Assembly: GCF_003970675.1 (NCBI RefSeq)
Contig: NZ_CP034562.1
Span: 3,501,001 to 3,565,000, forward strand
DNA: 64,000 nt
DNA from: Flammeovirga pectinis
GTDB lineage: Bacteria > Bacteroidota > Bacteroidia > Cytophagales > Flammeovirgaceae
Direction: 5' to 3'
This document shows positions 44,234 to 64,000 of this stretch, piece by piece. Positions within the stretch are counted from its first letter, which is position 1, and every line of letters begins with the position of its first letter. The position numbers and the translations under genes are program-made. The notes under the pieces are model-generated. The model had not been told where the DNA came from. It saw only the letters and a list, made by a program, of their open reading frames with translations, and searched no databases.

Positions 44234-44265
44234 TTTGCAGTATAAAATAAAATTCCTTTACTTTG
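44234..44265 (+). promoter_or_regulatory. Candidate promoter of the tRNA-like array
   Basis: TTTG (44234-44237), 20 nt, TTACTTTG (44258-44265), one mismatch to the -7 consensus TAnnTTTG. Transcription would start near 44270, giving a leader of about 60 nt before the first RNA. Confidence 0.5.
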
Positions 44266-44329: not shown

Positions 44330-44484
44330 TGTAAGGTGATGAAACTGGCAGACATGCCCTCCTGTCTCGAGGGTGGAGGTTCGCGATAAACACTAGGTAA
44401 TGGGTTGACCACTAAACGTGCGATGCACACACGATTTGTCTATTTGCTAAGCACTCCGTGAAGGTTCGACTCCTTCCCTTACAG
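44330..44484 (+). ncRNA. tRNA-like RNA, copy 1, type A (155 nt)
   Basis: Complete cloverleaf by eye. Acceptor stem TGTAAGG (44330-44336) with CCTTACA (44477-44483), unpaired G at the discriminator position and no encoded CCA. D-arm ATG (44339-44341) with CAT (44353-44355) around a leucine-type loop containing GG. Anticodon stem CCCTC (44357-44361) with GAGGG (44369-44373), loop CTGTCTC, anticodon candidate GTC (44364-44366) after U33, with U at 37. T-arm GAAGG, loop TTCGACT, CCTTC (44460-44476). Between anticodon and T stems lie 86 nt: helix V1 GGAG with CTCC, helix V2 TAGGTAA with TTGTCTA, an apical GTG/CAC hairpin and an extra small TGG/CCA hairpin. Confidence 0.85.
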
Positions 44485-44528
44485 CTACTATTTATTATAC
44501 GAATAAGTAGAACTTTGATATAATACAC

Positions 44529-44671
44529 TGTAAGGTGATGAAACTGGCAGACATGCCCTCCTGTCTCGAGGGTGAAGGTTCGCGATAAACATTTAGTAAT
44601 GAAAGTGTGATGCATACACGATTTACTAAAAGGCTAAGCACTTCGTGAAGGTTCGACTCCTTCCCTTACAG
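44529..44671 (+). ncRNA. tRNA-like RNA, copy 2, type B (143 nt)
   Basis: Same acceptor, D, anticodon (GTC at 44563-44565) and T arms as copy 1. The variable region is 74 nt. Helix V1 is GAAG with CTTC instead of GGAG with CTCC. Helix V2 is TTTAGTAA (44592-44599) with TTACTAAA (44623-44630). The apical hairpin is GTGT with ACAC around GATGCAT. The small TGG/CCA hairpin of type A is missing (12-nt difference). Confidence 0.85.
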
Positions 44672-44716
44672 CTACTACTTATTATACGAATAAGTAGACT
44701 TTTGATATAATAACAC

Positions 44717-44859
44717 TGTAAGGTGATGAAACTGGCAGACATGCCCTCCTGTCTCGAGGGTGAAGGTTCGCGATAAACGTTTAGTAATGAAAGTGTGATG
44801 CATACACGATTTACTAGAAGGCTAAGCACTTCGTGAAGGTTCGACTCCTTCCCTTACAG
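44717..44859 (+). ncRNA. tRNA-like RNA, copy 3, type B (143 nt)
   Basis: As copy 2, anticodon candidate GTC at 44751-44753. Differs at the base of V2, where one A-U pair becomes a U-G wobble (3' strand TTACTAGA) and one loop base changes from A to G, leaving every helix intact. Confidence 0.85.
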
Positions 44860-44903
44860 CTACTACTTATTATACGAATAAGTAGACTTTTGATATAATA
44901 CAC

Positions 44904-45046
44904 TGTAAGGTGATGAAACTGGCAGACATGCCCTCCTGTCTCGAGGGTGAAGGTTCGCGATAAACATTTAGTAATGAAAGTGTGATGCATACACGATTTA
45001 CTAGAAGGCTAAGCACTTCGTGAAGGTTCGACTCCTTCCCTTACAG
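44904..45046 (+). ncRNA. tRNA-like RNA, copy 4, type B (143 nt)
   Basis: As copy 3 with the original A in the loop before V2; anticodon candidate GTC at 44938-44940. All helices intact. Confidence 0.85.
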
Positions 45047-45091
45047 CTACTACTTATTATACGAATAAGTAGACTTTTGATATAATAATAC

Positions 45092-45234
45092 TGTAAGGTG
45101 ATGAAACTGGCAGACATGCCCTCCTGTCTCGAGGGTGAAGGTTCGCGATAAACATTTAGTAATGAAAGTGTGATGCATACACGATTTACTAGAAGGCTAA
45201 GCACTTCGTGAAGGTTCGACTCCTTCCCTTACAG
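45092..45234 (+). ncRNA. tRNA-like RNA, copy 5, type B (143 nt)
   Basis: Identical by eye to copy 4 across the RNA; anticodon candidate GTC at 45126-45128. The preceding spacer has one extra A/T change. Confidence 0.85.
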
Positions 45235-45279
45235 CTACTACTTATTATACGAATAAGTAGACTTTTGATATAATAACAC

Positions 45280-45434
45280 TGTAAGGTGATGAAACTGGCA
45301 GACATGCCCTCCTGTCTCGGGGGTGGAGGTTCGCGATAAACACTAGGTAATGGGTTGACCACTAAACGTGCGATGCACACACGATTTGTCTATTTGCTAA
45401 GCACTCCGTGAAGGTTCGACTCCTTCCCTTACAG
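45280..45434 (+). ncRNA. tRNA-like RNA, copy 6, type A (155 nt)
   Basis: Same long arm as copy 1. The only visible change is in the 3' side of the anticodon stem, GAGGG to GGGGG, which turns one U-A pair into U-G and keeps the stem. Anticodon candidate GTC at 45314-45316. The array terminator follows after 8 nt. Confidence 0.85.
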
Positions 45435-45440
45435 CTATAA

Positions 45441-46382
45441 TTAAAGCTTTCTAATTTTTCTTAGAAGGCTTTTTTTATGTCCAATTTTTTCCATAAAAGC
45501 TAATATCATAGCACTAGAATCTACAAAAAAACCAATATTTATACCATCAAAAGTATCAGATGGCCTGTGATAATCTTTATGTTCTTCTACTCCAAAATAG
45601 ATAAATGGTATTCCTTTTTTATGGAATTCACCGTGATCAGAAGCAAATACCCAATTATTTAAGCCTTCATCTCTTCTTCGATCATGACCAAACTTAACAG
45701 TCATGTTTCCTGCTACACTATTTTGAATATCCTTACGGTACTCATTATGATAGTGAACTCCTGTTACAGATAATTCGTTAATATCACTTTTGGAAATCAT
45801 ATCCATATTAACAAACAGCAATATTGAATCTAACTGTATAAGGTTACTTTCAAGAAAATATGCAGAACCTGCACATCTACTTTCTTCAGCATCAAAAGAT
45901 ATAAATACAATTGGTAAATCTGCAGGGTTCTTTACAAATTCTCTCGCTATTTCTATAAGTGCAGCTACTCCTGAAGCATTATCATCTGCTCCATTATAGA
46001 TGTTAGTTCCAAATATACCAAGGTGGTCATAATGAGCTCCAATAATTATACACCCGTCACTAGGGTGAGTCACTTGCTTACCTTCCACATAACCAATCAC
46101 ATTGTGACCCACTTCATGGATATTATAAAGTTTATTATAAAAATCAAAAGTTTGAATATAAGAGTCATCGAAATGTTTTAGGCCTACCTTTTCAAATTTA
46201 TCAACAACGTAATCCCTTGCTAATAAACCTCCTTTTGTATTTGTTTTACGGCCTTCAAAATAATCAGAAGAGAAAATCCTAGTTGTTGTAAGTAAAGACA
46301 CAGGGTCTAACCTACGCTCCTGAGCTATTAGGTGAGTAGAAATAATACTAATTAAAACATAAAAAAATACTCTTAACAACAT
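45441..46382 (-). CDS. M28-family zinc aminopeptidase, secreted
   Basis: 313 residues. Signal peptide 1-20 ends in LIAQ. Co-catalytic zinc ligands follow the M28 pattern: His117 and Asp119 in AHYDHLG, Asp133/Asp134 in GADDNASG, the catalytic Glu166 and ligand Glu167 in FDAEES, Asp194 in NMDMIS, and a final His in DYHRPSDTFD. It likely removes N-terminal residues from peptides in the periplasm. The 3' end of the gene is shared with the terminator of the RNA array. Its start lies 15 nt from the stop of the HhH gene upstream, suggesting one transcript. Confidence 0.93.
   Translation of the reverse strand: MLLRVFFYVLISIISTHLIAQERRLDPVSLLTTTRIFSSDYFEGRKTNTKGGLLARDYVVDKFEKVGLKHFDDSYIQTFDFYNKLYNIHEVGHNVIGYVEGKQVTHPSDGCIIIGAHYDHLGIFGTNIYNGADDNASGVAALIEIAREFVKNPADLPIVFISFDAEESRCAGSAYFLESNLIQLDSILLFVNMDMISKSDINELSVTGVHYHNEYRKDIQNSVAGNMTVKFGHDRRRDEGLNNWVFASDHGEFHKKGIPFIYFGVEEHKDYHRPSDTFDGINIGFFVDSSAMILAFMEKIGHKKSLLRKIRKL
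45443..45476 (+). terminator. Terminator of the tRNA-like array
   Basis: Twelve-bp stem AAAGCTTTCTAA (45443-45454) with TTAGAAGGCTTT (45461-45472), one U-G pair, and seven U. It overlaps the last codons of the convergent M28 peptidase gene, whose stop is at 45441-45443. Confidence 0.9.
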
Positions 46383-62887: not shown

Positions 62888-62901
62888 CTATATATAATAA
62901 A

Positions 62902-63010
62902 TGTGGCGTCGACCTACTCTCCCGGGGGTTAACCCAGTACCATCAGCACTGTGGGGCTTAACTGCTCTGTTCGGAATGGAAAGAGGTGAACACCCACGTC
63001 ATTGACACCA
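62902..63010 (-). rRNA. rrf: 5S ribosomal RNA
   Basis: About 109 nt. Terminal stem TGGTGTC (minus, from 63010) with GACGCCA (to 62904), and internal 5S segments CCATTCCGAACAG and GGTACTG read on the minus strand. Ends are accurate to a few nt. It follows 23S in the same transcript and ends before the terminator at 62851-62887. Confidence 0.95.
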
Positions 63011-63105
63011 TCAATATCTTAATGTCTTTGATCATCGAATCTAATCACTAATACCAAACAACTCATCTAAATAAGTTATTTGACAGTGAAAAGGAAAAAC
63101 TTTGC

Positions 63106-63129
63106 TAGCACTCTATTACTAGAGTGCTA
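63106..63129 (-). repeat. Perfect inverted repeat in the 23S-5S spacer
   Basis: TAGCACTCTA with TAGAGTGCTA around TTAC, just past the 23S 3' end. No U run follows. It could be a processing or stabilising stem in the rRNA precursor. The rest of the spacer (63011-63105) shows nothing further. Confidence 0.7.
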
Positions 63130-63132
63130 ACC

Positions 63133-64000
<868 letters not shown>

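Follow-up and report, generated by a model that had tools for sequence, protein, structure and literature searches.

The stretch of DNA analysed here, referred to as the window, comprises 64,000 nucleotides of the 6.68-Mb, three-contig genome of Flammeovirga pectinis (contig NZ_CP034562.1, positions 3,501,001 to 3,565,000 of the forward strand). At positions 44330-45434, flanked by the genes for a tetrapyrrole-methylase-like protein (slightly below the Pfam cut-off) and an M28 peptidase, it contains an array of six tandem tRNA-like units of, in order, 155, 143, 143, 143, 143 and 155 nt (Table 1). An initial annotation, made from the sequence alone, had reported six such units with 86 or 74 nt separating the anticodon stem from the T stem, and this was confirmed, the larger distance belonging to the long units and the smaller to the short ones. 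All six units share a 7-bp acceptor stem (UGUAAGG/CCUUACA) with a discriminator G, U8-G9, a D arm (AUG-AAACUGGCAGA-CAU), an anticodon arm with a 5-bp stem and a 7-nt loop (CCCUC-CUGUCUC-G(A/G)GGG), and a T arm with a 5-bp stem and the loop UUCGACU (GAAGG-UUCGACU-CCUUC). The stems, T-loop and U33 claimed in that annotation are present in every unit, but the pyrimidine at position 37 had been overlooked, and U33 is missing from 18 of the 106 distinct units of the wider family. ARAGORN reported no tRNA in the window, Rfam gave nothing at gathering score over the window's units (the tRNA model included), and a search of the whole genome with RF00005, in which 150 of 607 candidates were scored, listed no tRNA at the array.

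Table 1. Features of the tRNA-like array, in coordinates of the window
Feature	Position	Strand	Basis
Unit 1, 155 nt tRNA-like RNA, long arm	44330..44484	+	138.5 bits, covariance model built with unit 1
Unit 2, 143 nt, short arm	44529..44671	+	139.6 bits, covariance model built with unit 2
Unit 3, 143 nt	44717..44859	+	138.1 bits, covariance model
Unit 4, 143 nt	44904..45046	+	138.6 bits, covariance model
Unit 5, 143 nt	45092..45234	+	138.6 bits, covariance model
Unit 6, 155 nt, long arm	45280..45434	+	138.7 bits, covariance model
Unit 1, acceptor stem, 5' strand; U1 pairs with A72, G2 with C71	44330..44336	+	sequence; both pairs in 106/106 rows with letters
Unit 1, D arm, Leu-type (AUG AAACUGGCAGA CAU)	44339..44355	+	by-eye comparison with the genome's tRNA-Leu genes
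Unit 1, anticodon arm; loop 44362-44368 CUGUCUC = C32 U33 G34 U35 C36 U37 C38	44357..44373	+	sequence
Unit 1, variable arm (giant, 86 nt); UGGAG/CUCCG as outer stem, GUUCGCGAUAAA..CUAAGCA as conserved internal loop, tip variable	44374..44459	+	covariation
Unit 1, T arm GAAGG UUCGACU CCUUC	44460..44476	+	sequence
Unit 1, acceptor stem, 3' strand, and discriminator G73 (44484), then C; CCA not encoded	44477..44484	+	sequence
Terminator-like hairpin with T run, 3' of unit 6	45443..45472	+	hairpin search
Likely promoter: TTTG 44234-44237, TTACTTTG 44258-44265	44234..44265	+	by-eye reading against the Bacteroidota consensus

The six units are members of an RNA family that is conserved in Cytophagales, Chitinophagales, Saprospiraceae and other Bacteroidota. 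With unit 2 as the query, a search of DNA gave matches in 41 of 58 genomes (the genome of the window included), in which, beyond close relatives, chiefly the tRNA body was matched. A covariance model built from 21 units (R1) was then searched against 392 genomes of the phylum, again including the genome of the window, with the eight best first-look candidates per genome scored under stricter filters, and hits of at least 90 bits were obtained in 42 genomes. The remaining listed hits scored no higher than 70.6 bits and, apart from an armless hit in genome G029, had the ordinary length of class II tRNAs (about 83-88 nt); five lower-scoring hits read individually look like tRNA-Leu. Homologues keeping the arm are therefore present in related genomes, and their absence, which the initial annotation had named as a refutation, does not hold. 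On the basis of the DNA search or the model searches, genomes were classified as carrying or lacking the RNA. In addition, a pattern search returned at least 120 stretches, 80 named loci of which were used for neighbourhood counts; the named relatives among the pattern matches listed include Hymenobacter, Dyadobacter, Spirosoma, Cyclobacterium, Algoriphagus, Pontibacter, Chitinophaga, Niabella, Terrimonas, Flavihumibacter, Portibacter and Phaeodactylibacter, as well as one metagenome-assembled genome labelled Ignavibacteriales. Two units of a genome of the same order (G050) are letter-identical to units in an Algoriphagus locus (L169), and at least seven units are present in G012.

The initial annotation knew of no described family with such a layout, and neither an Rfam match nor a description of a giant-arm RNA family was found in the literature searched, a search whose scope excluded most subscription papers and all preprints. 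At E values up to 5, six relatives' loci gave 13 Rfam matches, none above the gathering score, and those overlapping units lay on the opposite strand. A likeness to tmRNA, Y RNA or SAM-II, also considered, found no Rfam support in the window or in these loci. A mobile origin of the array was likewise rejected, as blastn of unit 1 against phage and plasmid records gave no match at E 1e-5. A match to Flavo-1 RNA (L101:433-500; 40.7 of 42 bits, slightly below the Rfam cut-off) was seen near the tRNA-like units of G134.

The anticodon loop and the discriminator were compared across 64 loci from the DNA or model searches, three of which contain no unit (L244, L247 and L263); the pattern-selected loci (L122-L201) were left out because the pattern itself fixes U35, C36 and C38. 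After a partial match (L072:1692) was dropped, 119 units were reduced to 106 distinct ones. In all 106, U35, C36, C38 and G73 are present, and both G2-C71 and U1-A72 occur in 106 of 106 rows with letters. Position 34 is G in 87 units (all six of the window among them), A in 9, C in 6 and U in 4, while position 37 is U in 97, C in 9 and never a purine, and U33 is found in 88. The published determinants of aspartate identity are G73, G34, U35, C36 and C38, with G2-C71 as a minor one (excerpts of PMC9976931 and PMC6523644), and the family has this set without exception apart from position 34, which is mostly G. Moreover, the tRNA-Asp loop of the same genome is CUGUCAC, so that the commonest loop of the family (CUGUCUC, 54 of 106 units) differs from it only at position 37. 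All 89 tRNAs listed for this genome, from 150 of 607 candidates scored, have U33 together with a purine at position 37. What is known of tRNAs suggests that an RNA with a constant pyrimidine 37 and variable positions 33 and 34 is probably non-decoding. The sequence CCUCCU in the anticodon stem was also considered as a mimic of the anti-Shine-Dalgarno tail of 16S rRNA, an idea that was rejected because the stem changes with compensation (CCGCC/GGCGG, CCCGC/GCGGG).

The first acceptor pair points to a different enzyme. Bacterial GatCAB amidotransferase reads U1-A72 in tRNA-Asn, whereas G1-C72 and U20a act as antideterminants in tRNA-Asp (excerpts of PMC9976931 and PMC4206432). Of the 89 tRNAs listed for the genome, the two tRNA-Gln and the two tRNA-Asn are the only ones with U1-A72. 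Because the family carries this mark, GatB was searched for, the prediction having been set down beforehand; the presence of GatCAB was judged from GatB (TIGR00133), and glutaminyl-tRNA synthetase (GlnRS) was searched for with TIGR00440 in 61 genomes. In a chosen set of genomes, GatB was found in 22 of 22 carrying the RNA and in 7 of 24 lacking it. Over the 392-genome draw it was present in 43 of 43 RNA-carrying genomes, the one with the armless RNA included, and across both sets in 53 of 53 distinct ones, a count that leaves out RNA-carrying relatives from the unit 2 search that were in neither set. In the other orders of the same class (90 genomes), 25 genomes had both the RNA and GatB, none had the RNA alone, 4 had GatB alone and 61 had neither (Fisher 2e-18, uncorrected for relatedness). 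Genomes of the other classes sampled commonly have GatB and no RNA.

The exceptions in the chosen set can be explained, since all seven genomes with GatB and no RNA lack GlnRS. Among 35 genomes of the class that possess GlnRS, GatB was found in 15 of 15 with the RNA versus 3 of 20 without it, and the tested genomes of the class without GlnRS had GatB in 15 of 15 cases. Asparaginyl-tRNA synthetase (AsnRS) was present in 46 of 46 genomes tested, a set that included 12 of the 15 genomes with both the RNA and GlnRS; in such genomes GatCAB would thus be left without its usual job. The two traits also come and go together within families: in f23, G134, G153 and G400 have both and G059, G397 and G176 have neither, and in f24, G064, G180, G320 and G421 have both and G074 and G169 have neither.

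The distribution of asparagine synthetase was also surveyed. Homologues of AsnB (TIGR01536) were found in 54 of 61 genomes at E 1e-40, 53 of them above the family cut-off. In a tree of 68 AsnB sequences, which contains at least one sequence from each of 25 RNA-carrying genomes (some copies failed the open reading frame filter, and not every hit is included), the form of 553-563 aa, the size of the E. coli enzyme, makes up one clade of 12 genomes, all lacking the RNA. Two further hits of this size, in G391 and G086, lie outside the tree, and the gene in G086 has an in-frame TAA. The AsnB hits above the cut-off in RNA-carrying genomes have open frames of 591-717 aa; a 546-aa hit in one such genome (G120) falls below the cut-off and misses the first part of the profile. 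In G134, an RNA-carrying member of f23, the AsnB copy sits among polysaccharide export and transferase-like genes, as judged by reading the sequences.

A further recurrent feature is a neighbouring regulator. In 52 of the 80 pattern-selected named loci, the opposite strand carries an Lrp/AsnC-type gene at a distance of 121-243 bp upstream, and AsnC domains were found. Among 19 genomes with both the RNA and such a gene, found without the pattern, the distance between the two is 149-223 bp in 10.

Taken from sequence and gene distribution, the reading preferred here, with a probability of roughly 0.58, is that the family is charged with aspartate by the ordinary aspartyl-tRNA synthetase (AspRS) and amidated to asparagine by GatCAB, and that it would probably be a carrier reserved for the RNA-dependent formation of asparagine and excluded from decoding. 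The units would be transcribed, matured at their ends and provided with CCA. Aspartylation by AspRS is proposed because most aspartate determinants are kept and the commonest loop is that of tRNA-Asp with A37 changed to U37, and subsequent conversion of the bound aspartate to asparagine by GatCAB is proposed because the RNA has U1-A72 where tRNA-Asp has G1-C72. Pyrimidine 37, and possibly also the arm, may bar the RNA from the ribosome; such exclusion would matter, because asparagine carried on a GUC anticodon would misread aspartate codons. The asparagine would then be released or used. Tandem copies would raise the capacity of the system, and the divergent upstream Lrp/AsnC-type gene may tune its expression to amino-acid supply.

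A more far-reaching version, which is tentative and is put at a little under even odds, sees the RNA as a coenzyme: a decoding-dead hybrid of a Leu-type body, an aspartate loop, an amidotransferase mark and a giant arm, copied in tandem and often located beside an Lrp/AsnC regulator, for which alone GatCAB would be kept where GlnRS is present, and which would have been lost together with GatCAB in lineages relying on ordinary AsnB. Asparagine synthesis of the tRNA-dependent kind is known from tRNA-Asn; as far as the literature searched shows, no separate decoding-dead RNA is known to carry it. If correct, this would be, within the same literature, the first case of an RNA that is devoted to the synthesis of an amino acid and kept out of decoding, tying metabolism to translation in living cells. 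The retention of GatCAB by many Bacteroidota that have AsnRS and GlnRS would also gain an explanation; in a survey of 547 genera, 68 had AsnRS, GlnRS and GatCAB, for which the reason is left partly open in the excerpts of PMC4206432.

Several observations weigh against asparagine formation on this RNA. With regard to charging, G34 is replaced by A, C or U in 19 of the 106 distinct units, and the family has U1-A72 and mostly A10 (at least 84 rows of the covariation alignment), as opposed to the G1-C72 conserved in bacterial tRNA-Asp and termed crucial (excerpts of PMC9976931) and the G10 counted among its features (excerpts of PMC6523644). For AspRS, a substrate that combines a class II body and a giant arm would also be out of the ordinary. 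With regard to need, the genome of the window has two AsnB homologues above the cut-off, one of which (633 aa) has Cys2 and SGGIDS, lies outside a polysaccharide cluster by reading of the sequences, and has orthologues in both RNA-carrying and RNA-lacking relatives of the order. Because this copy with its catalytic signatures is retained, the RNA may not be the only source of asparagine, as far as the survey, which covered AsnB, shows. Moreover, several genomes without the RNA have no E. coli-size AsnB either. The association with GatB has its own exceptions: three genomes of the class (G208, G254 and G432, family f26) have GlnRS and a weaker-scoring GatB (E about 1e-105), which may have been acquired or may stem from contamination, and no RNA, four genomes of other classes (G076, G186, G201 and G220) likewise combine GlnRS and GatB without the RNA, and six genomes of the same order (G018, G019, G023, G033, G038 and G044) have GatB, no GlnRS and no RNA hit. 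The genome counts are uncorrected for relatedness, with f25 and f26 giving most of the cases in which both RNA and GatB are missing. In 9 of the 19 genomes mentioned above, that of the window included, the Lrp-type gene is distant or on a different contig. Finally, no asparagine-releasing enzyme was found.

The structure, giant arm included, was assessed by covariation. Folding single units separately gave differing arm structures. In an alignment of 120 rows (107 distinct), fitted to the model, which favours the structure, standard pairs were found in 99.2% of the pair cells, both partners change in 16 of 26 pairs, and such a double change is seen in 252 cells; when partners were slid by 1-3 columns as a control, at most 61.1% of cells were paired and at most 5 pairs changed on both sides. 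The arm is built from an outer stem, a conserved internal loop (GGAUAAA-like on the 5' side, CUAAC-like on the 3' side) and a tip whose form varies between a UUCG loop and long hairpins, and the pair closing its inner part occurs as CG, GC, UA, UG and AU. The variable region measures 39-123 nt in 118 units without N; a unit with an N run (L073:2052) was excluded from the lengths. Inspection by eye assigns the D arm, and U44 and G47-U48 at the base of the variable arm, to the tRNA-Leu type. In G029, the variable region of the best hit comprises only 7 nt (UACAAUU), and the loop CUAUCUC, the UGU..ACA ends and G73 are kept, which indicates that the arm can be dispensed with and that the tRNA body is what stays constant; the two sampled congeners of G029, G046 and G418, carry the arm. 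The arm is the most variable part of the family, not its constant core. Within otherwise variable sequence, the motif GGGUUGACCAC is common to the arm tips of the long units of the window and of L083, L087, L097, L107 and L111-L113. In L083, L085 and L251, the T stem contains a bulge of two nucleotides, UU (GAG-UU-GG paired with CC-CUC), which is not usual in a tRNA fold.

A regulator or decoy, one of the roles offered by the initial annotation, is the likeliest of the rival readings, although it is unlikely. Such an RNA, charged or not, would bind AspRS and/or GatCAB and tune the aspartate or glutamine/asparagine pathways without carrying flux, the arm being the binding platform. The same identity elements, the frequent linkage with an Lrp/AsnC-type gene, and an arm internal loop (GAUAAA/CUAAC) conserved beyond the needs of charging all agree with this; a substrate would, however, be the simpler explanation for the tight co-occurrence with GatB in genomes whose GlnRS leaves GatCAB without another need. 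The six units here and the seven or more in G012 also suggest a bulk need.

Somewhat less probable still is that GatCAB is kept for tRNA-Asn charged by a non-discriminating AspRS, with the RNA merely tracking the same clades. The tRNA-Asn of the genome does have U1-A72, and Bdellovibrio operates in this way (excerpts of PMC4206432). The joint absence of the RNA and GatB within families f23 and f24 speaks against such a coincidence. So does the enzyme itself: at the position that is His in the non-discriminating Pseudomonas enzyme, the 26 of 29 AspRS sequences that matched the motif have K, L, F or M, in genomes with and without the RNA alike. This pattern weakly fits an AspRS that does not use tRNA-Asn, and no residue switch tied to the RNA was seen among these sequences. 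A dedicated second AspRS was also considered and rejected, as each of 30 genomes has one AspRS above the family cut-off.

An aminoacyl donor, in which a transferase passes the amino acid of the Asp-RNA or Asn-RNA to a lipid, cell-wall or peptide acceptor, is improbable to a slightly greater degree. Staphylococci use non-decoding charged tRNAs in cell-wall synthesis, which provides a precedent. The only transferase family tried, MprF/DUF2156 (PF09924), was found in 1 of 22 genomes with the RNA versus 6 of 24 without it and was dropped as a candidate consumer for want of co-occurrence, and no such transferase recurs among the 25 commonest neighbour clusters of the 80 loci (the sequences of nine clusters were inspected). 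The donor for non-ribosomal aminoacyl transfer was the nearest of the three roles originally suggested; the evidence points instead to the conversion of aspartate to asparagine on the RNA by GatCAB, which had not been proposed.

A specialised decoding tRNA, or a class II tRNA charged by seryl- or leucyl-tRNA synthetase, is very unlikely. The Leu-type D arm and the U44/G47-U48 arm base would favour it, as would G73 combined with a long arm, a serine signal (excerpts of PMC7609411). The specialised decoding originally suggested is nevertheless disfavoured by pyrimidine 37 in 106 of 106 units and by the variability of positions 33 and 34; the tRNA-Leu genes of the genome have A73 in place of the G73 of the family, neither synthetase explains the invariant U35, C36, C38 and U1-A72, and the armless relative in G029 keeps the loop. 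That the arm is an intron-like insert, spliced out to give ordinary tRNAs, is hardly credible: an 11-nt repeat (GUGAAGGUUCG) does stand at both arm ends in the short units, but it is lost in most relatives, the outer stem and inner closing pair of the arm covary, one relative simply has no arm, and the loop minus the arm would still have pyrimidine 37.

Compared with known systems, the chemistry predicted for asparagine formation on this RNA is that of tRNA-dependent asparagine synthesis (AspRS and GatCAB on tRNA-Asn in Bdellovibrio, Deinococcus and Thermus), in which GatCAB reads U1-A72 and which is also found beside AsnRS and GlnRS (excerpts of PMC4206432). The known carrier is a decoding tRNA-Asn and its AspRS is non-discriminating, whereas here a separate RNA has an aspartate loop, pyrimidine 37 and a giant arm. 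With tRNA-Asp, the family shares U35, C36, C38, G73, G2-C71, a mostly G34 wobble position and, except at position 37, the loop of the genome's own tRNA-Asp; it differs in its class II Leu-type body, U1-A72 for G1-C72, pyrimidine 37 and an arm of 39-123 nt. Class II tRNAs resemble it in the D arm and arm base of tRNA-Leu (by eye) and the G73 of tRNA-Ser, and differ in having arms of 10-24 nt, without the conserved internal loop and invariant aspartate-type loop; for tRNA-Leu, which has A73, neither the loop nor the discriminator fits. Of the features of a decoding tRNA, the family has the 7/5 acceptor-T cloverleaf with D and T loop signatures and not the purine 37 with U33. The peptidoglycan tRNA-Gly of staphylococci likewise comes from a tRNA gene that serves metabolism and not decoding; it is used for another amino acid and purpose, and is not known to have a giant arm or an amidotransferase mark. 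The bacterial Y RNA YrlA is a tRNA mimic not known to have a free acceptor end, from which the family differs by a free 7-bp acceptor stem with G73, and no YrlA match was present among the Rfam results for the window and the six relatives' loci.

With regard to expression, the initial annotation had claimed a dedicated promoter and a strong terminator and had read them, with the amplification at one locus, as pointing to high-level expression, which is best kept as a prediction. The terminator-like hairpin was recovered, while the promoter elements upstream of the array, matched to the Bacteroidota consensus, are a by-eye reading, and a sigma-70 scan found 6 promoters against 4.3 +/- 2.1 in shuffles, that is, no excess. 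Similar elements were seen by eye upstream of some relatives' units.

Other elements were observed divergent from the Lrp gene. In the genome of the window (L242; G000:C1, upstream of the Lrp gene at 997196) and three relatives (L249, L245 and L244), this position is taken not by the giant-arm RNA but by a small hairpin resembling an acceptor plus T arm, clear by eye in L242 and L245 and weaker in L249, together with a conserved stretch (GTGTTTATTTTATGTGTTGTTTATTGGTTAAGG or close) and a terminator-like hairpin. These elements may be a decayed relative or a different RNA. In three genomes lacking the RNA (G176, G397 and G059; L255, L257 and L259), a short conserved stretch (TTATAATTGGTTRG or close) with a terminator-like hairpin occupies the same divergent position.

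Ordinary tRNA genes are amplified in tandem in this genome as well (L031-L061), including Val x8, Glu x7, Asp x7, Met x6 and Lys x6. At the end of the window (62901-64000, minus strand), a 5S rRNA gene and the 3' part of a 23S rRNA gene were identified by Rfam.

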